A stretch of DNA of 64,000 bases, from positions 1-64,000 of the IMG/VR virus record IMGVR_UViG_3300045256_000829. The stretch is one strand, 5' to 3'. The notes under the pieces are model-generated. The model was not told the DNA's origin. It worked only from the letters and a program-made list of their open reading frames with translations, and made no database searches. The position numbers and the translations under genes are program-made. This document shows positions 5,051 through 63,615 of the stretch, piece after piece; the first letter of the stretch is position 1, and the number at the start of each line of letters is the position of its first letter. The DNA comes from a virus.

Positions 5051-6910
5051 TTATTTTATGCCCTTTGGCGTCCAGCCGCCAGTGCTGCCCTGCCCTAAAA
5101 CGCCAACCGAACCGCGCGGCATCGATTCGAGCGCGATATGGCAATAAACCGAAGCGTGATAGAGATGATCCGGCGCTGTATGCTCCCAACTGGCCCGCTC
5201 CTGACCGTGATCATCTTTCGTGATAACGCGAATGGGCGAACACATCATTGCGACGAACTCGGGGTCATTCGCGATTTCAGGCGAGCAAACAACGTCCTCG
5301 CCTTCGATCGCTGCATATACGGCGTCCATCGCCATCGTGCGGTTAACTTGAACGACGTCCGAATCCGCCGCCGCGCTCTTGATGTCGGCCCGCGCCCTGA
5401 ACCGCTTGCGCTCGATCGCGGTTTGCTTCTTTCGTTCCTCGCTCGATCCCAGCGCGAACAACTTGCCGGACAGCGCCGCAACGCCTTCGGGATAGTAGGC
5501 ACGCCTGACGCGCCCTTTGAATTTCTCTGCCCATTCTTTGGCCTTGTGCAATTCAGGGTGAGCATCGACGACGCAAGAGCGAACCTTGTATCGATCCATC
5601 AGCGCCGACAATTCTGCCCATCTATCAACCGCGCCAACCGCCCGGATATAGCGCCTGCCGTCTTCGCCCGTTGAATCGATTCGATAATGCAGCTTTGCGC
5701 CAACGTCGATGCCCATTGTCGTGCGGGTCCACTTCATTAACGCGAAAGCTCTTTCATCGTAATCGACGGCAAGCTTCTGAAGCATCGCCGCCGTAATGCG
5801 CGAGTCGGCCGGCGCATAAGCGATTCCCAAATCGGAGCGATAGAACTCGGTTTTGATCGTGGGATCGTGAGAGACGGCGAGTTCCGCCAACTCTTCGAGC
5901 TTAACCGAGGGGAAGGCGAGCGCCGGGATTTGATACCCGTGCCATTTCGTCGCCTCAGGGTTCGTAACTCTCCATCGGCCAGGTCCGAATCGGTCGATTT
6001 CCCCTTTGCAGTGAGGGCAAAAAACGGCCCACGCTGCGCCGGAAAGCCGAAGGAGTGTCCAATGCTTCCATTCTTGGTAATCGGCCCCACTGGCGCGAAC
6101 GTCCCGAAAATAATCAAGCTCTGTGAACGTTCCGCACTTCCCGCACTCAACCTCCCATACCCGCTGATCGCTCTGTTTATATAAAGCGTCAATTCCCATC
6201 CCTGGCAAAGTTGGAGTCGAAATGCACAGCTGCCGCTTGATCAAACTTTGGCGCAGTCGCTTGCGGGCAAGCTCAACGGCCGCGGGGTCCATTCGGTCGA
6301 ACTCGTCCAGGATCAAAACGTCTGCCGGGAACGAAAGCAGCGCTTCAACAGACCACGCGCCGCGAAGGTACAGATAGGAATCCTGAATCTGTTTGAACTT
6401 CACGTCGTCGAAATCCGAATCAGCGAACAGCGCGGAAAAGTATTCCGATTCGCGCTTGAGGCCTGTGAATCGCTCTTTCGAGAAGTCGGACAGGGCTTCT
6501 TTTGTCGGGAAGCAGTAAGCAACGTTTAAGCCAGCCTTGGGAACGCCTGCTTGCGCCGACCATTCCTTGTAACCTTCGACCATTGCGTGAACGGCGTAAT
6601 TGACCGCGAATTCGCTAATGCCAACCTGAGCAGGCTTCTTGACGCAGATATTCCGGTGATCATCGCGATAAACCCCTTCGAGCGGTCGAAAGCGGGCAAG
6701 GGAGAATGGTTGATCGTCGATGCGTCGATATTGCAACGCCCATTCGAGGCGCGGGAATGTGATCACCGCTTTTTCCTCGTTTGCTTCATCGATCGAATCG
6801 GCCACGCCCTGCAAAATCTCACGACGGCGCGCGAGACTGCGCCGCGCCTGCGCCTTGTAATACCAGCTATATCGAGGCGCGTATTCCCAAGGTGTCTTGT
6901 AACGTCTCAC
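5051..6910 (-). CDS. terL: terminase large subunit, GpA type
   Basis: The ATP-driven DNA-packaging motor and headful/cos nuclease, 619 residues, usual for the lambda GpA family. Visible motifs: GpA-type Walker A KKPAQVGIS (residues 91-99), Walker B VLILDEFD (198-205), a zinc knuckle with CGKC (256-259) and CPHC (298-301), then the RNase-H-like nuclease with GIDVGAK (Asp402), CVVDAHP (Asp449) and DHLYHAS near the end. The start is GTG, overlapping the preceding stop as GTGA. It works with TerS (7404-8039) and docks on the portal. Confidence 0.93.
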   Translation of the reverse strand: MRRYKTPWEYAPRYSWYYKAQARRSLARRREILQGVADSIDEANEEKAVITFPRLEWALQYRRIDDQPFSLARFRPLEGVYRDDHRNICVKKPAQVGISEFAVNYAVHAMVEGYKEWSAQAGVPKAGLNVAYCFPTKEALSDFSKERFTGLKRESEYFSALFADSDFDDVKFKQIQDSYLYLRGAWSVEALLSFPADVLILDEFDRMDPAAVELARKRLRQSLIKRQLCISTPTLPGMGIDALYKQSDQRVWEVECGKCGTFTELDYFRDVRASGADYQEWKHWTLLRLSGAAWAVFCPHCKGEIDRFGPGRWRVTNPEATKWHGYQIPALAFPSVKLEELAELAVSHDPTIKTEFYRSDLGIAYAPADSRITAAMLQKLAVDYDERAFALMKWTRTTMGIDVGAKLHYRIDSTGEDGRRYIRAVGAVDRWAELSALMDRYKVRSCVVDAHPELHKAKEWAEKFKGRVRRAYYPEGVAALSGKLFALGSSEERKKQTAIERKRFRARADIKSAAADSDVVQVNRTMAMDAVYAAIEGEDVVCSPEIANDPEFVAMMCSPIRVITKDDHGQERASWEHTAPDHLYHASVYCHIALESMPRGSVGVLGQGSTGGWTPKGIK

Positions 6911-9140: not shown

Positions 9141-9705
9141 GACTAACACCTCCGTCTCGCAACGCAGAGATTACCGCGTCGGTGATTTTCCCTAAATTGA
9201 TACTCTTCGCCTGTCGGCTGGTCATGTTCGGACAAGGCCGATTGACGATCGTTTGAGCGTAACGCTGCTTTGACCATTTAAGCCGCTTGCGAATGATAAC
9301 AAAGTACCCACCTTTGGCCCTGTCCCGGCATTCGATTTCATAGCGAAACCATTCGGTTTGCTCGCCCGGTTTTTGTGGGGCATTTCCACCTAAATTTGTA
9401 GGGTATTTCGGGATTTGCCCCACGTTTTTTTGTGGGGCATTTCCGCCTAAGTTTTGTGGGGTATCTTGTGGGGTATTTCCGGGTAAACCTTTAGGTGTAT
9501 TTACGTTTATCGGATTTTGCCCCACTTTTTGAGCAGGGAAATGCCCCACATTATTTTGTAGGGCATTTCCCGCTGATTTTGCAGTCGTTTGAGGCTGACT
9601 TTTAACACCTTGAGCCGACCCAACCGCGCCTCGTGATTGCGTCGTGTCGGCTACGGTTTTCCCGGCGCATCCGGTTTGCCGTCGCCGTCGCGGTCCCATT
9701 CCCAA
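8908..9705 (-). CDS. repeat-containing DNA-binding-like protein, long overlap at both ends
   Basis: A frame of 265 residues. The N-terminal half is low-complexity with a repeated GGNAPQK / GNTPQ unit (about residues 46-107) encoded by a short DNA repeat, TTTTGTGGGGYATTTCC. The middle (TEWFRYEIECRDRAKGGYFVIIRKRLKWSKQRYAQTI) is basic and folded-looking, with a ring of R/K. The last 77 codons overlap the 8865-9140 gene in another frame and look like a shadow, so the true end may be near 9140 or a frameshift may be present. The start overlaps the upstream gene by 55 bp; no clear ribosome site. Function unknown. Confidence 0.5.
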   Translation of the reverse strand: MGMGPRRRRQTGCAGKTVADTTQSRGAVGSAQGVKSQPQTTAKSAGNALQNNVGHFPAQKVGQNPINVNTPKGLPGNTPQDTPQNLGGNAPQKNVGQIPKYPTNLGGNAPQKPGEQTEWFRYEIECRDRAKGGYFVIIRKRLKWSKQRYAQTIVNRPCPNMTSRQAKSINLGKITDAVISALRDGGVSHAITEKLVQRAGRGTGKRASELKPNERFVLSRIESSLAARNGNRGNLPRSTGGQVGISNPDVPEASNGGFTDVPNVH

Positions 9706-10962: not shown

Positions 10963-12237
10963 TTAAACCTTCGTCACTACCTTGTCGATAAAATTCAGAA
11001 ACAGCGTCCGCTTATTCGTGAGGCTCACAAACAGGACTTCGCGGTTCGTCGGCAGGAACGGTTGATAACCAGCGGGACCTTGATCGACTGTAATAGCGCC
11101 GAAGGCCTCCAAGGATAAAATTGCGGCAGGCGCGATGAACTGAGCGATCACAACCGTAAGCGAGCCGAACGATTCACCGGTCACTATTCCTGCCGGCAAG
11201 ACAGAGATTCCACCCGGCGTTAGAGTGGGAGAGCCGAAGGATTCGGCGCTTGGAATGCCTGCCAGCGTGAACGACAAATTCAGCCTTGACGACCCAAACA
11301 CTTCAGATGACAGAATCGCCTGAGGCGTGAGATTCAGGTTGATTTGAGGCGCGCCAAAACTCTCAGCCGAAGGGATGCCGGCAACAGACAGAGCGATTGC
11401 GCCCGGCGTGAGCGTGAGCGCGCCGAAGGCTTCAGCCGTGCCAATACCGAAGGGTTGAATAATCAACCCTCCCGTTTGAATAATGTGCGAGCCGAACGCC
11501 TCAGCCGATGCGATCCCTGAAGCCGAGATAGTGACGGAGCCAACCGCGACAGCGTGCGAACCGAACGCCTCAGCTGAGGCGATGGCCTGGCCATAAATGA
11601 CAAGGTTGAGAGCGTGCGAGCCAAAGGCCTCGTTCGAGCCGATCCCGCTTACAAAAATCTTCAAACTGAGCGAGGGCGCACCAAAATTCTCAGCTGATGC
11701 GATGCCTAACACGGTGATCAGGTACGCCGCATTGACAGAGTGAGAACCGAACGATTCGGCCGACGCGATAGCCGAAGGGGACACGTTGATAGCGCCAGGG
11801 GAGATAATCGAGGTTCCAAAACTTTCCGCAGATGCGACGGCCGAAGGCGAAACCGTAACAGATCCAATCCCGACAACTACAGCGCCAAAAGATTCAGCCG
11901 TAGCAATACCCGAGAGCGAGAGAACGACAGCGCCAGGGGACACAGCCACATTACCAAAAGCTTCAGCCGTCGCAATGCCTGAGGGCGACAAGGCGACGGC
12001 GCCCGGAGACACGACCGCGCCGCCGAACGCTTCAGCGCTGGCAACACCACCTGGCGCAACAGTGACGGGACCGGGCGACACAACCGCATCGCCAAAAGCT
12101 TCAGAACTCGCAATACTGCCCGGCGCAACATTGACAGCGCCAGGAACAATAGTTGAGGAACCGAAGGTTTCAGCAGAGTTGATGGCCGAAGGCGATAGGT
12201 TTTGCGCGGCGGGAGTACTCAGTAATAAGAGCAGCAT
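10963..12237 (-). CDS. 17-repeat SAEAFG structural protein
   Basis: A 424-residue protein made almost entirely of a roughly 22-residue repeat centred on [S/T]-x-E-x-FG (IASAEAFG, IATAESFG, IGSNEAFG, ILSSEVFG...), each followed by alternating hydrophobic strand residues and often SPGAV. I count 17 copies. Similar repeats occur in phage tail-fibre or minor structural proteins and suggest a beta-solenoid or fibrous shaft. A non-repeat cap of about 40 residues (PAGYQPFLPTNREVLFVSLTNK) ends the protein. The N-terminus MLLLLLSTPAAQ is hydrophobic but short. Genes on both sides look like virion surface proteins. Confidence 0.7.
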   Translation of the reverse strand: MLLLLLSTPAAQNLSPSAINSAETFGSSTIVPGAVNVAPGSIASSEAFGDAVVSPGPVTVAPGGVASAEAFGGAVVSPGAVALSPSGIATAEAFGNVAVSPGAVVLSLSGIATAESFGAVVVGIGSVTVSPSAVASAESFGTSIISPGAINVSPSAIASAESFGSHSVNAAYLITVLGIASAENFGAPSLSLKIFVSGIGSNEAFGSHALNLVIYGQAIASAEAFGSHAVAVGSVTISASGIASAEAFGSHIIQTGGLIIQPFGIGTAEAFGALTLTPGAIALSVAGIPSAESFGAPQINLNLTPQAILSSEVFGSSRLNLSFTLAGIPSAESFGSPTLTPGGISVLPAGIVTGESFGSLTVVIAQFIAPAAILSLEAFGAITVDQGPAGYQPFLPTNREVLFVSLTNKRTLFLNFIDKVVTKV

Positions 12238-17925: not shown

Positions 17926-19647
17926 TTACCCTTGCGGGCAACCTGATCGCAGGGTTTTGTTTGGCCGCGAATAAACCTGATTAACCGAAGGGGTTGTTCC
18001 GCGAATCTTCCCCTTTTTACGATTGGCGCTCGCACCGAGAATCGCCGTCACCAACGCTTTCGCCAACTGAACCGGGACGGCGTTCCCGATTTGTTTGACT
18101 TGTTGCTCGCGGTTGCCGAGAAAGACGTATGAACGGGGAAACGACATTGCCGCCGCGAGTTCGCGCGGCAACAACATTCGATAAAGAATATCGAGAAGAA
18201 AATATCCATTGCCCTCTTTAAAATTCGGAACAGCAAGCGCGAATCTATCTTTCGATGTTACGGTGTCCAACGGTTCATCAATACTGATGGCGTTCGCCGT
18301 TCCGTTGTATTTAACGAGATAAGGAGTAACGAGACTCAGATATTCGCGCGCGAGTATTGTATTGAGAGGTTCACTTACGCCCCGCGCCTTAATTTCGGGG
18401 CCTCCACTGTTGATGATAAAGGGTTCGATTAGTCCCCAAGCGTCAACGCTGGTCACTGTAGGGAAAGGCGAGTCCAGCTTGTATGGGGGTCTGTCATCTT
18501 TTCCGTGATTAGCTGCAATCACGAACGGTTCGACCAACCCAAAGCGATTACTCGTGTCTAAAGTTGAGAGCGGTTTATCAACGCTAAAGCTTCGACCGTC
18601 TCCGTCTTTACGGTTTGCATGACTACCGTTATAACGAACTATAAACGGCTCGCAGAGCATGTGATGCGTCCCTTGGGCGCAAATCGTGCTCGGGGGTTGG
18701 TCAACAGATTGCGGAATGTTGTTATTCCTGAGTGTGACAACATAGGGCTCGCAAAGGCCGATACCCCTGCTGGTTGTCGTAATTGTCTGCAACGGATTCT
18801 CGACCGAACGCGGCACGCCGCCAGAAAGTTGCGGAACGATGAATGGCAAACCTGAACACTTTTGCAAGCCGATGAAGATTTTCCGGAGCGTGTTCGGAGA
18901 GAGCGGTTTCTTGCGATTAAATATGCTCTCGCCTTTGATCGACCAGTCGATAATTTCGCGCGTGGTCCGGTAAGGCTGCATTTGTGCACTGGGGAACAAA
19001 GAAGAGTTTTCGGATTTTTCGAGCGCCGCGCAATGTGTGGGAGTTGGCCAAACGATTGGTTTACCGTCGCGCCGCGCCTGAATGAATAGACGTTCACGCG
19101 AAGTCGGATCGCCGTAATCAGTCGCGCGCAGTTTCTTCCAGCTCACTTTATAGCCAAGGCTTTCAAGATTATTGACCCACGATATAAATGTCTCGCCTTT
19201 CTGCTTCGGATCGGGAACCCATTCGAGTTTTCCCTTGATCCGCTTCCGAATCAGCGGACCCCAGGTAAGAAAGGCGGGAACGTTCTCGACGAGGATCGCT
19301 TTTGGCAAGACAGCTTCCGCCCAACGAATTGCACACCAGGCCGTTGCCCGACTTTGATCATTAACCGGGCGGCCGCCTCGGGCGTTCGAAAAATGCGTAC
19401 ATTCCGGTGAGGCTACAAGGAGGTCGAGCTTGCCGATTTCGACCAATTCGCGCGGGTTGATCAATTCGATATTCGCGCAAAGGTGTTTAGCGTCCGGGTG
19501 ATTTGCCGAATGAGTTTCGATCGCCTTATCCCAATGGTTGATGGCTATCAGATTGAGCTTATAACCGAGACTCTCGCACGCCTCAGCCGCGCCCGTGGAC
19601 GTTCCCCCAGCCCCACAAAATAAGTCTACGAGGTTAAACGTTTTCAT
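17926..19647 (-). CDS. dcm: DNA (cytosine-5) methyltransferase with repeated insert
   Basis: Transfers a methyl group from S-adenosylmethionine to C5 of cytosine. 573 residues. Motif I DLFCGAGGTSTG (8-19), the catalytic loop as ASPECTHFS (Cys83; Glu replaces the usual second Pro), motif VI ENVP (121-124), motif VIII RERLFI (184-189), and motifs IX-X RELAAAMSFP and KQIGNAVPVQLAKAL near the end. Between about 270 and 475 lies an insert of six or so repeats of the pattern EPF-[VI]-...-V-[DE]-x-P-L-x-T. The start is the ATG at 19647; there is no restriction gene beside it. Likely self-protection against host restriction. Confidence 0.9.
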   Translation of the reverse strand: MKTFNLVDLFCGAGGTSTGAAEACESLGYKLNLIAINHWDKAIETHSANHPDAKHLCANIELINPRELVEIGKLDLLVASPECTHFSNARGGRPVNDQSRATAWCAIRWAEAVLPKAILVENVPAFLTWGPLIRKRIKGKLEWVPDPKQKGETFISWVNNLESLGYKVSWKKLRATDYGDPTSRERLFIQARRDGKPIVWPTPTHCAALEKSENSSLFPSAQMQPYRTTREIIDWSIKGESIFNRKKPLSPNTLRKIFIGLQKCSGLPFIVPQLSGGVPRSVENPLQTITTTSRGIGLCEPYVVTLRNNNIPQSVDQPPSTICAQGTHHMLCEPFIVRYNGSHANRKDGDGRSFSVDKPLSTLDTSNRFGLVEPFVIAANHGKDDRPPYKLDSPFPTVTSVDAWGLIEPFIINSGGPEIKARGVSEPLNTILAREYLSLVTPYLVKYNGTANAISIDEPLDTVTSKDRFALAVPNFKEGNGYFLLDILYRMLLPRELAAAMSFPRSYVFLGNREQQVKQIGNAVPVQLAKALVTAILGASANRKKGKIRGTTPSVNQVYSRPNKTLRSGCPQG

Positions 19648-19665
19648 CTTGTTCAATCGCCTCTA

Positions 19666-21275: not shown

Positions 21276-21722
21276 TTAGTAGTTGGGTTCCCAAAGAAGT
21301 TTTTGACCTGTCGGATGATTATCAACACGCGGACGCCTTTTCCGATTCCAGGTCCCGCCGCGCGACTCTGCGACTACCCTCCAATTAGCGGCTGAGAGAC
21401 TGACTCCAGATTCCGATTTCAGCGTATAAGTGATGATCCTCTTGTAACCGAGCGCCCTGCCCGCCTTGACTAATGCTCCGTAAAGCTTACTCGCTACATT
21501 TTGCGTATGATCTGTACAGCAACGAGTAATTTCGAGGGTCCAGCCATCATCAAACAACCTCGCGAGAGGTTTGCCAGCCATCGCGACGCCGACTATTTTC
21601 TCCCCGTCATTCACGGCCACCCCAAACACCCATCCACTCGGGGCGCGATGATGACTGTGATTCTTATTGATGAACCGTTGCGCCTCTTTAAACGTGATTG
21701 GTTGTAATTCGAGTTTGGCCAT
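21276..21722 (-). CDS. XF1762-family (GNAT-like) protein
   Basis: A 148-residue protein with the XF1762 pattern: ITFKEAQRFINKNHSHHRAPSGWVFGVAVNDGEKIVGVAMAGKP, DDGWTLEITRCCTD, NVASKLYGALVKAGRALGYKRIITYTL, ESGVSLSAANWRVVAESRGGTWNRKRRPRVD. The family is common in phages beside replication genes and resembles N-acetyltransferases; substrate unknown. The start at 21722 overlaps the previous gene by 35 bp. Confidence 0.85.
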   Translation of the reverse strand: MAKLELQPITFKEAQRFINKNHSHHRAPSGWVFGVAVNDGEKIVGVAMAGKPLARLFDDGWTLEITRCCTDHTQNVASKLYGALVKAGRALGYKRIITYTLKSESGVSLSAANWRVVAESRGGTWNRKRRPRVDNHPTGQKLLWEPNY

Positions 21723-24123
21723 AATTACGCCCCGCCGCGGCAAAGAGTGGCGTTTGCTCTTTCTCCATCTCTGCGCGGTCGCGTAGCGCACGCTTGAAGT
21801 TGTCTTGCGAGGTTTTCCAGTAAGAGCGTTTCAGTTCAATCCCCAGGTATTGACGATCAAGCAAGAGCGCCATCACGCCGGCGCTGCCGATCCCGTTGAA
21901 CGGCGAAGCGACAAGATCGCCGGGCGCCGACCAAAGCTTGATGGCCCGCTCGCAAACGGAGAGTTGCAGCGGGCAGAGGTGGCGAGCGTCTTCAGGTTCT
22001 TTGGCTATGGCTGTGTTGAGAACGTCTGTTTCCATGATTCCGTTGTAGACAACAAGGCCATCAGCTTTATGGCGTAAGTGGTGCGATGCCTGATGTAATG
22101 CTGGATAACTCGGCTGAATATCCGCGCTCTTTCCATCTGAAGTTAGATGCCGATACCAAACGGGCGCGGCCCATTCAATCCATTCATTCTCAGTAATCCA
22201 ACCATTCGCATTCTCGTAACGGGCAACCCGGCCAGCCCGTATCTTCTTCGGATTCTCGCCAGGCTTGCGGAAAATCAAGAGATAATCAGCGAGCGCCGGA
22301 CGCGTGAGTCCGGAATCAGTCGCCAGGGTTTTAAACAGCAAGCCGCGCTCTTTCGTGCGCGCCGCCTTAACCTGTGGATTTTTATCAATCGTCACTTCAC
22401 CTGTATAAATCCACCCTTCTTCCTCGAAGAGGTTGATAACCCTACCGCGAAAATCCTTCAATCCGATGTACCCATCCTGTGATTTCTGCGCTGGAACCTG
22501 ACAGAGATGAACCGCAGCCGTCCGCCCTGGCATCGTCGCGCGCAACATACCCGGCAACAGGAAACGAAAATGCTCGATCATTTGGCCGATCGATTCGCAA
22601 TTCCCGATGTCGCGCGCCGAATTCGAATAGGCGTACATACCGGGGAAGGGGGGAGAGAAAACCCAAAGGCCGACAGAATCCTTCTCGACGCGATCAATCA
22701 ATTTGACCGAGTCTCCCAGATGAAGCGTCCAGCCTTCGCCGCGCGCCGTCTCTTCCTTGTATTCGGCTTCCTCGTGTTTCGTGCGGCCCGTGCGACTCAG
22801 CTGCTTGATGGTTTGTTTCTTCATGGCTTCAACTGACTCCCTCATAAGTTCGGCGTGTTGATCTTCTTTGCGGCGAATGTTCGAAAGGATCGATCCCTCG
22901 GCTTCACTCGCAACGTGATATGCGACGACTTCGCGTTTCTGACCGAAACGCCAGAGGCGACGCGTCGCTTGATATAGTTCCTCAAAGCTATCCGACAATC
23001 CGACGAAAGCCATACGGGCGCAATGCTGCCAGTTCAACCCGAAACCAAAAATTTTCGGTTTTGTAATCATGATCTGAACATCTCCCTCCCTCCAGGCGAG
23101 TTCATATTCAATCCGCTTATCGTATGGAGTAGAACCAGAAATTGACACAGCATCACTTCCAAAGGCTTTCTCAAGAGCATCCTGCTCAGCATCAAGATTG
23201 CACCAAATCACCCATTTCTCTTTTTCAACGATCTGGGATTCGCCATAAATCAGTCTCCTGCATACTTCAACTCTTTCATGCAAGCTATCTTTTTTAGCCG
23301 TGCGCCGCTCTTTCAGCGTCTTCGCCTCCGTGGCGAACAGCATCCCGTCGAGCGGCTTCGAATTGACCGTGATTTGCTCAACGCGCAACGGCGGCAAGAG
23401 GTAACCCTCGTCGGAGTAGCCAAGATCGGAAGGCTTTTCGATTGCGACCGCCCAGGAGGCCAGCCAGTTGAAAAAATCCTTCCTCGCGTGATCACGCAGC
23501 TTCCATTTATGCGTGGTATTGCCGTCTTGCTTGAAATATAGGGCGATGATTTCCTTGCCGTTCATCACGTCAAGGAATTCGGCGTGATTGATAATTTCGA
23601 TCAGGTCATTAGGGGAAGGTGTAGCCGTGCAAGCAAGACGGAAGTTTATACCGCGGGCGAATTCATTGACTTGCCTTCTGATGACACCCTCGAAAGACTT
23701 CATAATCGAAGATTCATCACAGCAGATCCCGCCGAACACGTCAGGATCGAAGCGATGAAGCTTTTCGTAGTTCGTAACGTTCACGCCGATCGTGACATCG
23801 TCCATCGTTTCGCAAACTGTCACGGGAATGCCGAACTTCTTGCCCTCGCGCTCTGTCTGTCCGGTAACGGCCAGCGGCGCAAGCGTCAGCGTCGGCTTAC
23901 CAGTGTGCGCTATGACGTGCCGTTGCCATTCGAGATGCATTCCAGTTTTCCCCATCCCGCAACCAGCAAGGATCGCGGCCCGGCCCTTCTTGATCGCCCA
24001 GCGCGTTATGTCACGTTGAAAAGGGAAGAGAACCTTGTTGATCTTATTCGGCGCAACATCGAAGCCAGCTTCCGGCGCCACTATTCGTTTACTGTTGAGA
24101 AAATTATCGTAGTTACTTGTCAT
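21688..24123 (-). CDS. SNF2-like helicase fused to DNA methyltransferase
   Basis: One 811-residue chain with two enzymes. Residues 1-440 are a superfamily-2 helicase: Walker A GCGMGKT (54-60), DEAH-type box CDES (135-138), motif III TATP (166-169) and motif VI QATRRLWRFGQ (385-395). Residues 465-780 are a beta-class (motif IV first) DNA amino-methyltransferase: SPPF (490-493) and the SAM loop PFNGIGS (741-747); SPPF suggests N4-cytosine or N6-adenine. An ATG at 24123 is preferred; the longer TTG frame runs through the operator pair. Likely role: remodel or restrict-evade DNA during replication. The fusion is uncommon. Confidence 0.87.
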   Translation of the reverse strand: MTSNYDNFLNSKRIVAPEAGFDVAPNKINKVLFPFQRDITRWAIKKGRAAILAGCGMGKTGMHLEWQRHVIAHTGKPTLTLAPLAVTGQTEREGKKFGIPVTVCETMDDVTIGVNVTNYEKLHRFDPDVFGGICCDESSIMKSFEGVIRRQVNEFARGINFRLACTATPSPNDLIEIINHAEFLDVMNGKEIIALYFKQDGNTTHKWKLRDHARKDFFNWLASWAVAIEKPSDLGYSDEGYLLPPLRVEQITVNSKPLDGMLFATEAKTLKERRTAKKDSLHERVEVCRRLIYGESQIVEKEKWVIWCNLDAEQDALEKAFGSDAVSISGSTPYDKRIEYELAWREGDVQIMITKPKIFGFGLNWQHCARMAFVGLSDSFEELYQATRRLWRFGQKREVVAYHVASEAEGSILSNIRRKEDQHAELMRESVEAMKKQTIKQLSRTGRTKHEEAEYKEETARGEGWTLHLGDSVKLIDRVEKDSVGLWVFSPPFPGMYAYSNSARDIGNCESIGQMIEHFRFLLPGMLRATMPGRTAAVHLCQVPAQKSQDGYIGLKDFRGRVINLFEEEGWIYTGEVTIDKNPQVKAARTKERGLLFKTLATDSGLTRPALADYLLIFRKPGENPKKIRAGRVARYENANGWITENEWIEWAAPVWYRHLTSDGKSADIQPSYPALHQASHHLRHKADGLVVYNGIMETDVLNTAIAKEPEDARHLCPLQLSVCERAIKLWSAPGDLVASPFNGIGSAGVMALLLDRQYLGIELKRSYWKTSQDNFKRALRDRAEMEKEQTPLFAAAGRNYGQTRITTNHV

Positions 24124-24152
24124 TTCAAGTGTCTCCCTTGATATATCAAGTT
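24114..24152. promoter_or_regulatory. operator pair over the start of the helicase-methyltransferase gene
   Basis: Two full sites 21 bp apart: 24114-24131 (TACTTGTCATTTCAAGTG) and 24135-24152 (CCCTTGATATATCAAGTT). The first contains the gene's ATG; the ribosome site AAGGGAGA lies between them. The second abuts the previous gene's stop. Binding here would interrupt the replication operon inside. Confidence 0.75.
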
Positions 24153-24910
24153 TAAGAGGCAAAAAAATTCATCACGAGCGCGCCCTCGCCGCTATCAGGA
24201 TCTTCGGATTCTTCGATACGTCTGATGATTGATCCTCCATATCCCTCGCCGGATTCCGTCCAGTGTTCTTTCAACTTGGCCATTGTACAGTGCGCTGTGA
24301 TGATGACTTGATGATTGTAATTGTATGCGGCGTTGAGAATTCGCAAGATGGCTTCGCCGGTAAATCGAGTAGCGCGGCCGACATTGAAGTCATCGAAAAC
24401 GAGTAGCCAGCGCTCGGCGTTTCTTGCCTCACTGGTGAGCGCCGTGACTGAAATCGATGGAATGAACTGATCATTCCATTCGCCGTGCTTTAACTCTTCA
24501 AGAAGGTCTGGCATATACGAAAAAACAGCTGGCCGGTTTTCTTCAACCGCGCGCCTGTAAACAGCGTAAGCCAGTCCAGTCTTGCCGCATCCGTGCGGGC
24601 CAATGAGAACAAGTGAGCGATATGGATTTTCTTTGATGCGCGGGAGATATATCGCTTGTTTCTTATGGCGTTGCGGTGTCAATGTCATAAGGTTTACGTG
24701 TCGATGCTTGGGTGGAATTTTTGCCAATTTTGCGACTCGATATTTTTCAAGCTTGCACTCACATTCCTTGGCGCCGCGGTCAGTAAATACCCAACCTGGC
24801 GAGCTGCGATCACACCCGCAAGGATTAGTCGAGGGTTCATCAGATAACTTCAGCCCCGAAGAGAGACATTGATTCGCTTGAGTACTGGGAACTGTTTGAG
24901 GATTTGCCAT
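24152..24910 (-). CDS. DnaC-like replicative helicase loader ATPase
   Basis: A 252-residue AAA+ protein predicted to load the host DnaB helicase at the phage origin. It has an N-terminal cysteine cluster (CGC at 31-33, CEC at 50-52), Walker A GPHGCGKT (104-111), Walker B WLLVFDDF (168-175) and a sensor-like VIITAHC near 205. Size and order (directly after the initiator, which it overlaps by 71 bp) match lambda P/DnaC-type modules. ATG with AAAGGT upstream. Confidence 0.87.
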   Translation of the reverse strand: MANPQTVPSTQANQCLSSGLKLSDEPSTNPCGCDRSSPGWVFTDRGAKECECKLEKYRVAKLAKIPPKHRHVNLMTLTPQRHKKQAIYLPRIKENPYRSLVLIGPHGCGKTGLAYAVYRRAVEENRPAVFSYMPDLLEELKHGEWNDQFIPSISVTALTSEARNAERWLLVFDDFNVGRATRFTGEAILRILNAAYNYNHQVIITAHCTMAKLKEHWTESGEGYGGSIIRRIEESEDPDSGEGALVMNFFAS

Positions 24911-25799
24911 CGTCTTTACCTTTCTTTGCAGTTTTGTATTCAGTTAAAGCGTATTTCGTGAACGTTGCGAATCTGTTGCAAAGATCCGCGAGCGTCCGAT
25001 GCGCGATTTCACTCGCGAAATAATTATCCAGGGCGGTTGTGAAAAGACTTTCAGGGAGGTCGTTCTTGTAGAGCTTGATAAGCTTCGCGAGGTGAATAAA
25101 GTCAGCCTTTTTCCGATTGTACGGTTGCCCGTAAGCTTCAGGCGCCTCATAACGAACCCTGAAGAGTTCATACAGGAATTTTTGCTGAGCGGAAATCGAC
25201 GGCCCCTCTTCTACGAGCGGAACGCGAGTAGAAGTATTTTTACTTTTTTTATTAATATTTTTCTCTATATTGATGTTTCTCTGTCCAACAGAGAATTGAT
25301 TCTCTGTTGGACAGAGAATTGCCGCTCTGTTGGACAGAGAATTGATTCTCTGTTGGACAGAGAATTGATTCTCTGTTGGACAGAGAATTGAATCGGGGTT
25401 TTTGGTGCGCTTTTCCGCCCTGGCTAGTCGGGCTTTCTCGGTTTTAGATCTATTCTCGACGATGCGTTCGGCTGCAAAATGCTCGCGACTCTCCCAAAGT
25501 TCGTCAAGCTTTTCTCGATTGATCCTGTAAGCGTAAATCGGCGGGGAATCGACAAGTACGGCATCTATAACGCCCAAGTCGCACAGCGTCTTTCTTGCCG
25601 TTGCTTGCTCGGATCGTGTCAACCCGGTCGCTTTCCTGATCTGTTCGACATTGCGCTTGATCCAACCCTCTTCATTCGGCGACCAATAAAAGAGCTGACA
25701 AAACAGCATCGTCGCGGACCCTGTTTTAAGTATTTCGGAAAGTGAAGGGTAGTAAACGACTACCTGCCCGAGATTATCCAGGGCGTCTGTTAACTTCAT
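24840..25799 (-). CDS. O-like replication initiator, contains the origin
   Basis: A 319-residue protein. The N-terminal 110 residues form a winged-helix domain (SEILKTGSATMLFCQLFYWSPNEEGWIKRNVEQIRKATGLTRSEQATARKTLCDLGVI), as in phage replication initiators of the lambda O / replisome-organiser type. A linker (residues about 137-180) is encoded by the iterons. The C-terminal domain (SAQQKFLYELFRVRYEAPEAYGQPYNRKKADF...) should contact the loader. Start MKLTDALDN chosen for its GAGAGG site. First gene of the leftward replication operon. Confidence 0.87.
   Translation of the reverse strand: MKLTDALDNLGQVVVYYPSLSEILKTGSATMLFCQLFYWSPNEEGWIKRNVEQIRKATGLTRSEQATARKTLCDLGVIDAVLVDSPPIYAYRINREKLDELWESREHFAAERIVENRSKTEKARLARAEKRTKNPDSILCPTENQFSVQQRINSLSNRAAILCPTENQFSVGQRNINIEKNINKKSKNTSTRVPLVEEGPSISAQQKFLYELFRVRYEAPEAYGQPYNRKKADFIHLAKLIKLYKNDLPESLFTTALDNYFASEIAHRTLADLCNRFATFTKYALTEYKTAKKGKDDGKSSNSSQYSSESMSLFGAEVI
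25233..25277. other. AT-rich DNA-unwinding element
   Basis: About 45 bp, AT-rich (TATTTTTACTTTTTTTATTA and on), directly beside the iteron array. It is strikingly richer in A/T than its surroundings. In lambda-type origins such a tract next to the initiator sites is where strands first open. Confidence 0.75.
25278..25392. repeat. origin of replication: five 23-bp iterons
   Basis: Units start at 25278, 25301, 25324, 25347 and 25370, an exact 23-bp period. Each has a 17-bp palindromic core, TCTCTGTTGGACAGAGA, followed by ATTGAT, ATTGCC or ATTGAA; the first unit has the core inverted in its centre (CCAA instead of TTGG). The array lies inside the initiator gene, as in lambda O. Because 23 is not a multiple of three, the protein passes through all three frames of the repeat. 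Confidence 0.9.
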
Positions 25800-25844
25800 C
25801 GTCAAACCTCTCAATCAATCGTCATCATCGTGGGGAATGTTTCA

Positions 25845-25900
25845 TTGATACGGTAAAACGCTTGATTTATCAAGCGGCTCGATACTTTACCGCCCAAGCG
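25845..25900. promoter_or_regulatory. immunity operator region between repressor and replication operon
   Basis: Site 1, 25859-25876, is the best copy of the motif: CGCTTGATTTATCAAGCG, perfect outside its central two bases. Site 2, 25883-25900 (TACTTTACCGCCCAAGCG), is weaker; spacing 24 bp. The leftward promoter TTGATA (25873-25868), 17 bp, TATCAA (25850-25845) has its -35 inside site 1. The repressor gene starts at 25921, with no ribosome site before its ATG, so a leaderless transcript like lambda cI is possible. Confidence 0.8.
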
Positions 25901-25920
25901 TTTTGTAGTATCTAGCAAGT

Positions 25921-26349
25921 ATGAAAACCAGCGGGCGCGACAATCTAGCTCGACTAATTAAGCGGCTAAGGCTAGAAAAGGATCTATCCCTTGCCCAGGT
26001 CGAGTCAAATTCCGGTGGACGGATCACGAATGGCCATTTAAGTAGAATTGAAAATGGTCACAGTGAAAACCTAACCACCGATCGATTGGAGGCGATCGCG
26101 GACGGTTTACAAGTATCTCCCTTGAAACTCTGTGAGGCTTTGTTCGGAGTTACAGCCCCAAAAGATCCGAACGAGGAAGAATTGATCTTGATGTATCGAT
26201 CAATGACCGACGCCGCTAAGCCGTTCCTCTTGCTAATAGCTCGCGCGTTCCGAGTTTATCGGGCGGATGTTCTTGAGCACGAAAACATACGCGGGAACGT
26301 AGACGAGCAAATTGAGAAAGTGAAAACGAAAAAGAAAGCGTCAAAATAA
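25921..26349 (+). CDS. XRE-family phage repressor (DNA-binding subunit)
   Basis: A 142-residue protein. Residues 9-70 form a classic XRE helix-turn-helix (LARLIKRLRLEKDLSLAQVESNSGGRITNGHLSRIENGHSENLTTDRLEAIADGLQV). A helical tail follows (EEELILMYRSMTDAAKPFLLLIARAFRVY) and a lysine-rich end. It lacks the S24 peptidase domain of CI/LexA repressors. Its position, divergent to the replication operon and adjacent to the best operator, makes it the probable immunity repressor. Which protein binds the 18-bp motif is inferred, not shown. Confidence 0.85.
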   Translation: MKTSGRDNLARLIKRLRLEKDLSLAQVESNSGGRITNGHLSRIENGHSENLTTDRLEAIADGLQVSPLKLCEALFGVTAPKDPNEEELILMYRSMTDAAKPFLLLIARAFRVYRADVLEHENIRGNVDEQIEKVKTKKKASK

Positions 26350-37694: not shown

Positions 37695-39890
37695 CTAAGT
37701 TAGTGAGACCGTGACCTCAATATAATCGAGTGAGCGAACGGGATCGCGCACGATCGGCGCCCGCGGTAATCCAATGCGCCGCCCGCCAGGCGGCGGTAAC
37801 CATCCGCTTCCGCCAGCAACGAATGGACCGTCAGACAAGCTGTAATAAAGTGTCGGGTAAGCTTGCGCCTCGATGTCCATCTTTTGATCAGCCTTTCGCG
37901 TCATTTTCATGATTCGAAAATATTGAAAGGGAACTCCGGGTTGTTCCGTGAAGCTGTTGAGCTTCGAATTTACGACCTTGATCACCTTCCACGGATGCAA
38001 CTTCAACGCGTCAACCAACGGCGCCCAGGTTGTAAACCTGCAACGTAAATTGTTCCGCAGTCCCCCTTGATCGAACTCGCCAAGGTCAATGAGCATCCGC
38101 GCGACTCTTAACGCTTCGGCAAAGGTTGTCACGCCAACCAATGAATAAGGCTTAGACACCGTTCGCGTCGAATAGTCGCCCGCCGCAACGCCGGATTTCA
38201 TCTGGCGATCAAGGTCATCATAAGGGAAGGTCGTTTCCTGGTAGCGGCGATTCGCGTCGTCGTAAGTAATTTTGAGCTCATTCGGCAACTCGTCGTCACC
38301 TTTTTGCCACCATCGCAGCGTCGATTTTGGAACAGGCAAACCCTCGAAAACGATATTCCGCCCCGTCGTTCCCTGATCAGTAAACACGGGAACATTTTCG
38401 AGCGGCTCATTTCTCAGCGGGAGAATCCGCATCTTCCCATTGAAGTTGAACGGCAACGTGTAGCGGCCGGCAAGACAGATGTTCGTGAAGTGCTGCTGCG
38501 CCGCCTTTTCGTTTATTTCCGCATTGAAGGTCGTGCGGGACATATTAACTTCAGAGTCGCTCTCGTCGCGACTGACAACCGTTTCATTCGACCACGCAGC
38601 CAGATCAATCCAATCCTGAATAACAACGCGCGAATAATCGAGCTGATGGCCATATCGTTTATTGGTTACAAGATTGAGCAAGCACCATGCGCGGTTCGTC
38701 GTGTACTGCTTCGTGTAGGTCGAAGGCGAGGAATAAACGCGAATGTCGTTCTTGCCGACAACGGTGCATTCGCCCGAAATCTGACTCCCGGCAATTCCGC
38801 GCCAATCCTTAGGGCCGACATCGGCGCGCATGACTGCCGTTCCTGAATAGTTGAGCGAGTTAGTTTGAAACAGAACAGGAGCTTGCCTGACCTTGCCGAG
38901 ATTGCCCCATAAATGATTCCAGGGAACATACTGATTGTTCACATAAAAGTCATAGATCGAGGTTATCTCGCCTTCGCAAATCAGGAACAGAGTTTTCAGG
39001 TAACCACGCTCTGGGTTATCCCCGACGCTTTGAGACTCATAACCGAGAAGGTCAAGATCGCGAACAACGCGAGTTCCGTAGATAACGCGCAACGGCCGCT
39101 TTTGCAGGGATTCATTCCCGCGCGCCGTGGCAACGAAAGTATGATCGCCCGTTGAAACGAGTTCGGGCTCAGGCGAAAGGTCGAAGGCTAGATAACTGAG
39201 CGTGTCGCCAAGGCGCGCGATGCATGCGGCTTTATTGTTTCGCGGACAAGTCGTAAATGGGACACCCGCGTTAAGCAATCCGAAAACACCCCCGATATGT
39301 CGATTGTAACCGCAATCGTTATCATTGAGGGCCGCTTGCGTCGGAAACAGGAAGCTGCCATCAGACCGAACCGAGCCGCCGAAAATCGCCTGGCAACCAG
39401 CCCAGATGAAGCGCCGAGGGAAGGGTAGGAGAGGGGAACGGAATCCCGTTGCGACCTTCAACTTGATTCGGTCCCTCGTGCTCTCGTCGAGGCCTTTCAG
39501 TAATCCCCAAAAAACCTCAATCAAAAGATCCACGTCAGCGATGTATTCGCGAATCAAAACGCGCGTGCCCTCGCCTGACACCTTCCATAAGTTTGTCACC
39601 TGATTATCCCCATCCCAAATATCAAGAGAGACAGTGTCATCACCGATGGCAGACGTGTGGGGTAATTCAAGAAACTGATTCTTATTGAAACGCGGTTCGA
39701 CGCCGGAGATTGAATAAGCGCCGACGCCTGAGAAAACGGAAATCTGATCGACGGCCGTTGAAGAGTAATGGCGAGTTTGGCCACCATCCCAGAATATCGT
39801 GACGATTTCCTGAACCTTCGGCGGGAACGTGAGCGCCGCGAGTGAGGCAAGCTTTGCGGGATCGATTTCGCCCGACAGATCAAACGGCAT
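37695..39890 (-). CDS. tail-tip hub, gpL-like plus J-like fusion
   Basis: A 731-residue protein. The N-terminal 240 residues resemble lambda gpL (DUF2163-type): an early beta domain, then IWAGCQAIFGG, CGYNRHIGGVFGLLNAG and FTTCPRNNKAACIARLG, four cysteines in the spacing used by the gpL iron-sulfur site. From about 280 on the chain looks like a J-type hub: VIYGTRVVRDLDLLGYES, GYLKTLFLICEGEITSIYDFYVNNQY, GSQISGECTVVGKNDIRVYSSPS and RVARMLIDLGEFDQGG. In lambda L and J are separate genes. Order after gpM supports the call. Confidence 0.75.
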   Translation of the reverse strand: MPFDLSGEIDPAKLASLAALTFPPKVQEIVTIFWDGGQTRHYSSTAVDQISVFSGVGAYSISGVEPRFNKNQFLELPHTSAIGDDTVSLDIWDGDNQVTNLWKVSGEGTRVLIREYIADVDLLIEVFWGLLKGLDESTRDRIKLKVATGFRSPLLPFPRRFIWAGCQAIFGGSVRSDGSFLFPTQAALNDNDCGYNRHIGGVFGLLNAGVPFTTCPRNNKAACIARLGDTLSYLAFDLSPEPELVSTGDHTFVATARGNESLQKRPLRVIYGTRVVRDLDLLGYESQSVGDNPERGYLKTLFLICEGEITSIYDFYVNNQYVPWNHLWGNLGKVRQAPVLFQTNSLNYSGTAVMRADVGPKDWRGIAGSQISGECTVVGKNDIRVYSSPSTYTKQYTTNRAWCLLNLVTNKRYGHQLDYSRVVIQDWIDLAAWSNETVVSRDESDSEVNMSRTTFNAEINEKAAQQHFTNICLAGRYTLPFNFNGKMRILPLRNEPLENVPVFTDQGTTGRNIVFEGLPVPKSTLRWWQKGDDELPNELKITYDDANRRYQETTFPYDDLDRQMKSGVAAGDYSTRTVSKPYSLVGVTTFAEALRVARMLIDLGEFDQGGLRNNLRCRFTTWAPLVDALKLHPWKVIKVVNSKLNSFTEQPGVPFQYFRIMKMTRKADQKMDIEAQAYPTLYYSLSDGPFVAGGSGWLPPPGGRRIGLPRAPIVRDPVRSLDYIEVTVSLT

Positions 39891-60041: not shown

Positions 60042-60123
60042 CGCTTGATATATTAAGCGTTTCGCTTGGTAGGGTCAAGGTTGTCGCTTGATAATTAATG
60101 TGATTTACTTGATTCATCAGAGT
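60042..60123. promoter_or_regulatory. four tandem operators in the int/xis divergent region
   Basis: Sites at 60042-60059 (CGCTTGATATATTAAGCG), 60063-60080 (CGCTTGGTAGGGTCAAGG), 60085-60102 (CGCTTGATAATTAATGTG) and 60106-60123 (TACTTGATTCATCAGAGT). Start spacings are 21, 22 and 21 bp, so all four lie on one helix face. Rightward promoter TTGGTA (60066-60071), 18 bp, GATAAT (60090-60095); leftward promoter TTGACC (60078-60073), 17 bp, TAATAT (60055-60050). Confidence 0.85.
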
Positions 60124-60147
60124 TTGACGAAAGGACGATTGACGACG

Positions 60148-61245
60148 ATGACCGTATACAAAAGAGGCGGTGTGTACTGGTATGCCTTTGAACGCAAGGG
60201 AAAGCGTTTTCAGGGGTCAACCGGGGTTGGCGACAAGCGCGTTGCCAGAACGATTGAAGCCGCGCACAGGACACGCCTCGCGAAGATCGAGGTAGGGCTT
60301 GAAGAAGCCAATCCGATCGAAGCGCCGTCCTTCCCCGCTGCTATGAAAGCATTCCTGAACTGGTCAAAGACTACTCACGCCGATAAACCCGAAACCACGC
60401 GCCGCTACAGCGTGAGCGCCGTCGCGCTGGAAGAATTCTTCAGCAAAAAGAAACTGGGTGACATTACCGTCAAGCTGGTCGAACGGTTCATCGAATGGCG
60501 CTTGGCGCAAAAGGTCAAAGCGCCGGCGAAGAAGCGCAAAAAAGATCCTCGCGCTGTAACCGATAAGCCTATTCAACCCGCGACTGTGAACCGCGAACTT
60601 GCCTGCCTGCGCCACCTATTCAATTACTTCATCGGTCAAGGGGTGAAAGTTGCCAATCCAGTCAAGGATATGAAATTTTTGGCTGAGAATGAGGACACCT
60701 TCTATATATTGAGCGACGACGATGAATCCAAATATTTAAACGAATGTTCCCAGCCGCTTCACGACGTTGCGATCATGATTTTGGAAACAGGGATGCGCCC
60801 CGATGAAGTGTATTTGATGCGTAGATCCTGCCTCCATCTCGACAAGGGTTTCTATAAGAATCCTAAAGGCAAGACGCCATCAGCGCGCCGGCGAATTGAG
60901 TTATCGAGGCGCGCAACGGCGATGCTGAAAGAACGACTTGCGGAGATTGAAGGCGAATGGGTGTTTCCGAGTACTCGAAAGGAGGGTGTTCCCATCGTGA
61001 AGCTCAACGCCGCGCACAATGCTGCCAGGCAACGCGCGAAACTGCCGCGCTTCAGGATTTACGATCTGCGCCACACCTGGGCAACGCGAATGCTCGAATC
61101 TGGCGCGGCCGATCTGTTGACGTTGGCGTCGATGCTGGGACATAAACGGCTCGATATGGTCATGAAATATGCGCATCCGACAGATGGCCACAAGCGCGAG
61201 GCTATCCGAAAGTTCGAGGAAAGTAGAAGCAACCCGGACAGCTAG
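60148..61245 (+). CDS. int: tyrosine-family phage integrase
   Basis: A 365-residue site-specific recombinase. An N-terminal arm-type domain (TVYKRGGVYWYAFERKGKRFQGSTG), a core-binding domain (FPAAMKAFLNWSKTTHADKPETTRRYSVSAVALEEFF...) and the catalytic domain from about residue 190. Catalytic set: Arg217 (TGMRPDE), Lys240 or 242, Arg308 within YDLRHT, His332 (LGHK), Tyr341 (MKYAHP). The box II His is Tyr, a common variant. Start MTVYKR follows AAAGGA. No attachment site was recognised. Regulated by the operator array before it. Confidence 0.93.
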   Translation: MTVYKRGGVYWYAFERKGKRFQGSTGVGDKRVARTIEAAHRTRLAKIEVGLEEANPIEAPSFPAAMKAFLNWSKTTHADKPETTRRYSVSAVALEEFFSKKKLGDITVKLVERFIEWRLAQKVKAPAKKRKKDPRAVTDKPIQPATVNRELACLRHLFNYFIGQGVKVANPVKDMKFLAENEDTFYILSDDDESKYLNECSQPLHDVAIMILETGMRPDEVYLMRRSCLHLDKGFYKNPKGKTPSARRRIELSRRATAMLKERLAEIEGEWVFPSTRKEGVPIVKLNAAHNAARQRAKLPRFRIYDLRHTWATRMLESGAADLLTLASMLGHKRLDMVMKYAHPTDGHKREAIRKFEESRSNPDS

Positions 61246-62153: not shown

Positions 62154-63287
62154 TCAGGCGGCAAGCTTGATCCGTACTGATCCATTCCGCCGACAACGCT
62201 CGGCAAACAACTCTTCATAGCGCTCGCGGATCGTGGCGGCCGACACGTATTGAACCGCCAGGCCTGACACTCGCGCCACTTCCCGCCGAACACCGGCGAG
62301 CGCCTCGCACTGGTCAAGTGACGGGATGAATGTTGGCCACCCCTTCACGAAAAGCATCTCTTTCGGAATTCGCGCCTCGATCGCGCGACGCGCACTGGCG
62401 TTCGCTTTCGCTTGCGTCACGGCTTGGCGTTGCGCTTGGCTGAGAAGATCCGGGCGAACATCGGCAAGCCAGCGCGCCGGCTGAAAACTGAAAGCGCTGG
62501 CGATTTCCAAGTTCACAAGCTGATGATAATTGTCGTGATTGCGTTCGTCTTTTAGGCTGGCTTGTAGGTCGTGCATTCCGTTCAACACGCAAAGCGAGCA
62601 ACTCACCCGTGAATTACCATTCACGCGATAAGCGTAATGACCGGCGAATCCCTGCCGTTCGTGTTCAAGCCAAACCTCTTCGACTGGCCAGTCAATAATC
62701 GGATACCAGTCGCGGCCGCCGATTCCGCCAGCTCGCGCAAGTCTCTTATTCGGCTGCGATACTGGCTTCTTCGCCCTGCCGTCTGACTCTTCGCGCCGAA
62801 TGCCAACCGCGTTGATAATCGGATGGCCGTGAAAGCGGATGGCTAACTCACGCGTGATCGGCGCGACCTTCAATTCACTCGTACAGAAGCGCATCGAAGC
62901 CGAACTCCAAGGCGTGATGAGTGTCACGCAACGAAGGTCGATATAACGCGCCGCGTTGTCGCGCCATCGCTGCTGCCAGCGCTCAACCATTCCACCCTGC
63001 TTTCGTTTAACAACGATCAGTTCGAGGCCAAGATGAGCGGCTAAGCGTTCGCATTGAGGCAACGAATCCGCGTGTTCAATTCGGCCAAGATCGGCGTGAA
63101 TCAGGACCCGTGGCCCCTGATGGTTTACCGCGTCGAGAAAACGCGTCGTGGCCAGCGCCATCGCGTCAGAGTCCTTACCTCCACTGGCGCCGAAGGCGAT
63201 GACCGCATCCGCATCGATCAGATCCGCGACATCTTCATCAATGGTGATTTTATGATTCTTCGCAGCTGCGCGAATAGGACCCTTCAT
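62154..63287 (-). CDS. PAPS-reductase / DndC-like PP-loop protein
   Basis: A 377-residue adenine-nucleotide alpha-hydrolase-type enzyme. AVIAFGASGGKDSDAMALAT is the PP-loop SGGKDS at about residue 37. HADLGRIEH, CTSELKVAPI and GIRREESDGRAKKP follow the PAPS-reductase/DndC pattern, then WYPIIDWPVEEVWLEHERQGFAGHYAYRVNGNSRVSCSLCVLNGMHDLQAS with cysteines for an iron-sulfur site. Such genes are frequent in phages and of uncertain role (sulfur transfer or nucleotide modification). Start MKGPIRA follows AAGGAAG. Confidence 0.82.
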   Translation of the reverse strand: MKGPIRAAAKNHKITIDEDVADLIDADAVIAFGASGGKDSDAMALATTRFLDAVNHQGPRVLIHADLGRIEHADSLPQCERLAAHLGLELIVVKRKQGGMVERWQQRWRDNAARYIDLRCVTLITPWSSASMRFCTSELKVAPITRELAIRFHGHPIINAVGIRREESDGRAKKPVSQPNKRLARAGGIGGRDWYPIIDWPVEEVWLEHERQGFAGHYAYRVNGNSRVSCSLCVLNGMHDLQASLKDERNHDNYHQLVNLEIASAFSFQPARWLADVRPDLLSQAQRQAVTQAKANASARRAIEARIPKEMLFVKGWPTFIPSLDQCEALAGVRREVARVSGLAVQYVSAATIRERYEELFAERCRRNGSVRIKLAA

Positions 63288-63300
63288 ACCACTTCCTTGA

Positions 63301-63615
63301 TCAGTTTGTGTACGCGCCGATCGCGCCCGAACCGCATTTATAATTGGTTTGATTGGCGTCACTGCCAACGATCGTGAGCTTGCTGCCGTCGAGACACGTG
63401 GTTGGCGGATTCTTTTTCGGCCGATCACTTTCATTCGATAGCGATTCTCGGTTAACCGGGGTTGAATCGAGTCTCTGAATCAGCTGCGGTTCCGGCGCCG
63501 GACTCTGCGGCGTCGGCGGTGTGAGATAGTTCGGTTCAACAGTGCGCGGCGCGCTGCAACTCCAAGTCATAGCGCAAAGAACCACGAAGGCGATCATCAA
63601 CTTCCGGTTTTTCAT
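63301..63615 (-). CDS. small lipoprotein
   Basis: A 104-residue protein with a lipoprotein signal: MKNRKLMIAFVVLCAMTWSCSAP, lipobox-like MTWSC. The mature part is proline-rich (PPTPQSPAPEPQLIQRLDSTP) with CLDGSKLTIVGSDANQTNYKCGSGA, two Cys pairs likely a disulfide. Possibly an outer spanin or a surface lipoprotein. It overlaps nothing and ends 13 bp before the PP-loop gene's start region. Confidence 0.65.
   Translation of the reverse strand: MKNRKLMIAFVVLCAMTWSCSAPRTVEPNYLTPPTPQSPAPEPQLIQRLDSTPVNRESLSNESDRPKKNPPTTCLDGSKLTIVGSDANQTNYKCGSGAIGAYTN

Follow-up and report, generated by a model that had tools for sequence, protein, structure and literature searches.

A predicted lambda-type replication origin with five 23-bp palindromic iterons inside the O-like initiator gene of a temperate tailed phage

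We analyzed the IMG/VR virus record IMGVR_UViG_3300045256_000829, which is 67,502 bases long; its first 64,000 nucleotides, the whole stretch of DNA presented here, are referred to as the window. The record contains genes for an integrase (60088-61245), a terminase large subunit, a portal protein, a major head protein and a tape-measure protein, and it is therefore a temperate tailed phage. A megablast search with positions 20001-45000 found no match in the phage collection. The minus strand near 25 kb encodes a protein that matches PHROG 9773, "replication initiation O-like" (E 1.1e-14), and alignment with its relatives makes the ATG at 25799 the most likely start of this gene, rather than the TTG at 25814 that the ORF tool used. 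As in lambda-type origin regions, a helicase-loader gene, here DnaC-like, lies directly downstream of it (PHROG 50, E 4.6e-15; Pfam IstB_IS21, 30.6 bits versus a cut-off of 24.1). In the gap between the initiator gene and a divergent regulator gene, there is an inverted repeat with 18-nt arms that are 83% complementary (25847-25864 / 25895-25912), a candidate operator. The features of the locus are as follows.

24152-24910, minus strand: DnaC-like helicase loader gene, overlapping the 3' end of the initiator gene (PHROG 50; Pfam IstB_IS21)
24840-25799, minus strand: gene of the O-like replication initiator, 319 aa when read from the ATG at 25799 (PHROG 9773; alignment with relatives)
25233-25277, no strand: AT-rich tract and probable unwinding element (87% A+T, the highest of any 45-mer in the window)
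25237-25271, minus strand: degenerate 12-bp periodicity in the AT-rich tract, where relatives carry 12-bp repeats
25277-25391, no strand: iteron array of five 23-bp units (Tandem Repeats Finder, palindrome pattern search and comparison of units)
25278-25294, 25301-25317, 25324-25340, 25347-25363 and 25370-25386, no strand: 17-bp palindromes (pattern search)
25278-25294, no strand: iteron adjoining the AT-rich tract, with an inverted centre (plus strand CCA versus TGG in the other four)
25518-25799, minus strand: predicted code for the N-terminal winged-helix domain, residues 1-94 (AlphaFold2, 10-residue blocks at pLDDT 85-98; fold matches)
25921-26349, opposite to the initiator gene and just upstream of it: Cro/CI-type regulator gene (domain match)

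The array lies some 400 bp into the initiator coding sequence. The first-pass annotation described it as five units with an exact 23-bp periodicity and a palindromic core whose centre is inverted in the first unit, and our measurements agree on each point. Tandem Repeats Finder reports a period of 23, 5.0 copies, 90% matches, 0 indels and a score of 188, while the remaining nine rows for the 64-kb window have scores of at most 60 and the last part of the record, beyond the window, contributes one short row only. When periods from 12 to 60 were scored along the 67,502-base record, the best lag score was 76, at the array, compared to 25 at the next unrelated place, and none of 200 codon shuffles of the gene gave a 23-bp period as good. 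The exact sequence TCTCTGTNNNACAGAGA is present in four of the five palindromes, with a single mismatch in the third, at its outermost base. All 12 bases of the arms, CTCTGT-NNN-ACAGAG, are invariant across the five units, and variation between units is limited to the spacers, to the outermost base in unit three and to the unit at 25278, where the centre is flipped. When up to three mismatches are allowed, the palindrome pattern gives seven matches against 1.5 expected (0 of 100 shuffles reach seven); all five matches with at most one mismatch fall inside the array, and the exact pattern is confined to the array within the record. The 17-mer is also found once each in six other viral contigs, which is about chance level by rough reckoning, and a pair of adjacent query palindromes had no match in the viral_contigs and genome_contigs collections.

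The AT-rich stretch of 45 bp that had been noted beside the repeats is the highest in A+T of the window, the next most AT-rich 45-mer having 76% A+T. It lies on the 3' side of the iterons in the direction of the gene, as in lambda-type origins. A weak 12-bp period can be measured within it: the lag-12 score is 11 at gene positions 528-562, which was equaled in none of 200 whole-gene codon shuffles and, in local shuffles, in 4 of 2000 shuffles of bases and 22 of 2000 shuffles of codons. The first-pass annotation had also expected the GC-skew minimum to lie near 25.3 kb and had named a minimum far from there as an observation against an origin, and, taken literally, this is what we found. Cumulative skew declines nearly continuously and reaches its minimum at 66,686 of 67,502; after detrending, the lowest point is at 6,202 and the highest at 19,557. 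This course is what a record with most of its long ORFs on one strand would give; since most long ORFs here lie on the minus strand, we do not take the skew as evidence for or against an origin, and we think that it does not report the origin in this record.

As 23 is not divisible by 3, the reading frame changes from one unit to the next, which agrees with the earlier remark that the repeat is read in all three frames and encodes a linker; the resulting peptide is SILCPTENQFSVQQRINSLSNRAAILCPTENQFSVGQRN, residues 137-175. In an AlphaFold2 model of the initiator built from 31 sequences (mean pLDDT 69.5), a confident winged helix is followed by a long helix, and the helical C-terminal part is of lower confidence. 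Residues 139-200 have pLDDT values below 50 and coincide with the stretch encoded by the iterons and the AT-rich tract. With its codons at residues 137-175, the array is predicted to encode part of a disordered linker. The top structural matches to the model are winged-helix proteins tied at Z of about 8 to 9, many of them transcription factors. They include the plasmid Rep initiators 4pt7, 4pta and 5kbj, and also 4pql, which we take to be a plasmid Rep initiator and whose structure row reads DNA binding protein only; DnaD (2vn2) is lower, at Z 7.2. A Foldseek search returned nothing with E <0.001 (top E-value, 2.9e-3), and a profile search of solved structures by sequence gave nothing significant, its two matches having E values of 0.086 and 0.96. 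These fold matches support the prediction of a DNA-binding domain, of no particular family. The predicted model and the fold matches both point to an N-terminal winged helix, as in the initiators of lambda-type origins.

The location of the repeats within the initiator gene had been likened to that of the iterons in lambda O, and the comparison with known systems upholds this. In lambdoid phages (lambda and Stx phages), the O protein binds iterons in the middle of gene O that adjoin an AT-rich region needed for unwinding (PMC7466680). The annotated lambda iterons, at 39034, 39054, 39078 and 39101, are in the middle of gene O, and the annotated origin of P22 is within gene 18, in the same part of an O-like gene. 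The lambda origin resembles the query in that palindromic iterons, and after them an AT-rich tract, occupy the middle of an O-like gene, with a helicase-loading gene directly downstream. It differs in the number of iterons (four, against five in the query), in their spacing (20, 24 and 23 bp, against exactly 23 bp throughout) and in their sequence, and its downstream gene is P, whereas that of the query is DnaC-like. A 12-bp period is absent from both lambda and P22, where 85 and 48 of 200 shuffles, respectively, were as good. The origin of an integrative element has 23-bp palindromes of a different sequence, placed upstream of a gene (PMC2647930).

We also surveyed relatives of the initiator. 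In a tblastn search of the phage collection, 34 records matched the N-terminal domain only, all with less than 60% identity, and the leading 16 rows covered 28 to 34% of the query length at 32 to 38% identity. Of these 34, 20 were listed and 13 were fetched, the other 7 listed having looked like duplicate or sister records. With the single query protein as the probe, 15 stretches in viral_contigs and 130 in genome_contigs were matched, with no confirmed relative in either, and an alignment of 12 proteins used as the probe found 356 relatives in viral_contigs. The best 80 of these 356 viral loci, the 13 phage genes and the query make 94 genes, which clustered to 38 nonredundant genes. Gene starts were assigned by a simple rule, and a few therefore differ from the annotation (L020 and L013); two genes that run off contig ends (L042 and L103) were retained among the 38. 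Periods were tested in each gene against 200 codon shuffles, and a gene passed if at most 2 of the 200 were as good.

A significant 23-bp period was found in 29 of the 38 initiator genes including the query (28 of 37 relatives), and 9 genes had none. When the best lag from 13 to 45 was taken over the 290- to 540-nt part of each gene, it was 23 in 29 of the 38, 24 in 4 and another value in 5. A 12-bp period was significant in 30 of 38 genes, and both periods were significant in 25. At the same threshold, the 23-bp unit was palindromic in 20 genes and not significantly so in 18. For array positions, we used the 27 genes with a score of at least 14 and a start between 290 and 420 nt, 11 being dropped; in these, the arrays start at 302 to 405 nt (median 335) and end at 381 to 525 nt (median 427), and the relatives' arrays sit just past the winged-helix code. 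Among 119 control ORFs of at least 200 aa at the same loci, lag 23 passed in 2 and lag 12 in 3, and one of the two lag-23 passes comes from the L066 initiator, translated there from a later start. Most of the relatives' repeats are of the GGGAAANCCC or GCGGAAANCGC kinds, and none resembles the query TCTCTGTNNNACAGAGA. Place and period are thus conserved and sequence is not, which is the pattern expected of initiators that each recognize their own iterons. A comparison by eye of the DNA-contacting residues in the alignment with the iteron sequences gave no simple rule. Because the period is kept and the sequence is not, each initiator can be studied together with its origin as a pair that changes jointly.

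Two comparisons illustrate this range. The closest named records among the matches listed are the Burkholderia phages BcepIL02 and DC1 (Lessievirus), which match through the N-terminal domain with 37 to 38% identity over 32% of the query. Like the query, they have a DnaC-like loader directly downstream and, at the corresponding place, a 23-bp period (cluster L032); unlike it, they have GC-rich iterons of the TCGCGAACTGCGGAAnnCGCAA type and clear 12-bp repeats, and the C-terminal halves are without a confident alignment. Klebsiella phage Kp4882-1 (L014), which clusters with the viral contig L088, shares with the query a long 23-bp array (4.9 copies) inside an O-like gene, but the palindromic character of its unit, AAATGGGGAAAGTCCATTCCGGG, is not significant (39 of 200 shuffles, tested on L088), and perfect 12-bp repeats follow its array.

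Other readings of the array explain less. The palindromes could have no role as an origin and instead be operators at which a phage repressor or the initiator represses transcription of the replication genes. Palindromic repeats are typical of operators and a Cro/CI-type regulator gene is just upstream on the other strand, but we consider this reading very improbable, given that the array lies deep within coding sequence, that the one promoter-like match in the vicinity is what chance would give (1.1 expected), that the separate intergenic inverted repeat is better placed for such a role and that the intragenic location is retained in relatives whose repeats differ in sequence. An equally slight probability attaches to a functionless array, expanded by chance slippage in a part of the protein that tolerates it. 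The near identity of the units, the predicted disorder of the linker and the presence of this sequence as an array in no other searched record are what slippage could produce. However, neutral slippage events that were independent of each other are not expected to yield the same period and place with other sequences in 28 of 37 relatives, nor does slippage account for arm bases that stay intact while differences are confined to the spacers, one outermost base and the inverted centre, or for a location beside the 45-mer with the highest A+T content in the window. The least probable reading is that the repeats form RNA or single-strand hairpins (an attenuator or terminator), since the strong folding of the strand (-41.9 versus -12.3 kcal/mol in shuffles, z -12.2) is common to any palindromic array, the two terminator-like matches within the array lie antisense to the gene, on the plus strand, and have poor T tails, and the 23-bp spacing is fixed in relatives, which would suit protein binding on one face of the DNA.

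Taken together, the O-like gene, the DnaC-like loader and the 23-bp arrays in 29 of 38 genes support the earlier prediction, and we consider it very probable that this locus is a lambda-type replication origin of the phage. We infer its activity by analogy with lambda: the N-terminal winged helix of the O-like initiator would bind the array, most likely with one dimer per palindromic iteron, and the bound units, placed every 23 bp or about two helical turns, would form a nucleoprotein complex that bends the DNA. This complex may strain the adjoining 45-bp AT-rich tract until it opens, after which the DnaC-like loader would place the replicative helicase onto the opened strand. The intragenic DNA would then be used doubly, as a binding site and as code for the predicted disordered linker that joins the DNA-binding domain to the C-terminal part. 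The probable origin of the query is of a known kind and its repeat sequence is new; as an array, this repeat specificity is in no other record among the collections searched. The locus offers a well-bounded candidate origin of 160 bp in an uncharacterised temperate phage.

Most of the relatives carry a second kind of repeat shortly after the iterons. At least two phased copies of ACAGAGANTAC with at most two mismatches are present in 28 of the 38 genes, and the query has no such pair at this threshold, its weak 12-bp period remaining in the AT-rich tract. This conserved 12-bp repeat, ACTACAGAGAnT, which most O-like genes have, lies 0 to 30 nt past the 23-bp array in L026, L040, L043, L045, L088, L013 and others. 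Because 72 of 74 of the 12-bp repeat sites share one reading frame, the copies could in principle reflect a repeat in the protein (TTEI, TENT). In the 48 nt past the array, glutamate is encoded by GAG 55 times and by GAA twice, compared to 278 and 372 times, respectively, elsewhere in the same genes (Fisher p 6e-17, a value that is too small, as related sequences were counted as independent). The sites in this count were chosen by place only, in 27 of the 38 genes, and it is the codon test to trust; an alternative test that chooses sites by DNA match is biased towards GAG. In addition, three genes (L057, which clusters with two Pasteurella phages, L097 and L099) have a related motif, ACACTAGATTACA, twice at a 13-bp step, which shifts the frame. 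Codon use and this frame-shifting version argue for selection on the DNA, and the conserved AT-rich 12-bp repeat looks to be under such selection. We found no description of the combined 23-bp and 12-bp pattern in the available portions of the openly licensed literature. As a tentative proposal, which we stop a little short of favoring, O-like phages may have in common a two-module origin in which fast-diverging 23-bp palindromic iterons, each set recognized by the phage's own initiator, are paired with a slowly changing AT-rich 12-bp repeat of the ACTACAGAGAnT type that is kept as DNA, presumably as a motif for strand opening or single-strand loading. The 12-bp module of the query would then have decayed to a plain AT-rich tract, and its iteron half-site would have changed to one not found elsewhere. 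The conserved 12-bp element may be an unwinding signal.

Several other features of the window were recorded. Weak long-period repeats (57, 36 and 60 bp) are present at 9357-9500 and 11548-11706, the latter within a minor tail protein gene (10963-12237). The early region contains two large DNA methyltransferase genes, at 17926-19656 and 21688-24162, the second of which is fused to a helicase domain. Close to the integrase gene, at 62154-63434, is a phosphoadenosine phosphosulfate reductase-like gene, and the abstract of a paper on Burkholderia phage JC1 names a similar moron gene (PMC9144972).
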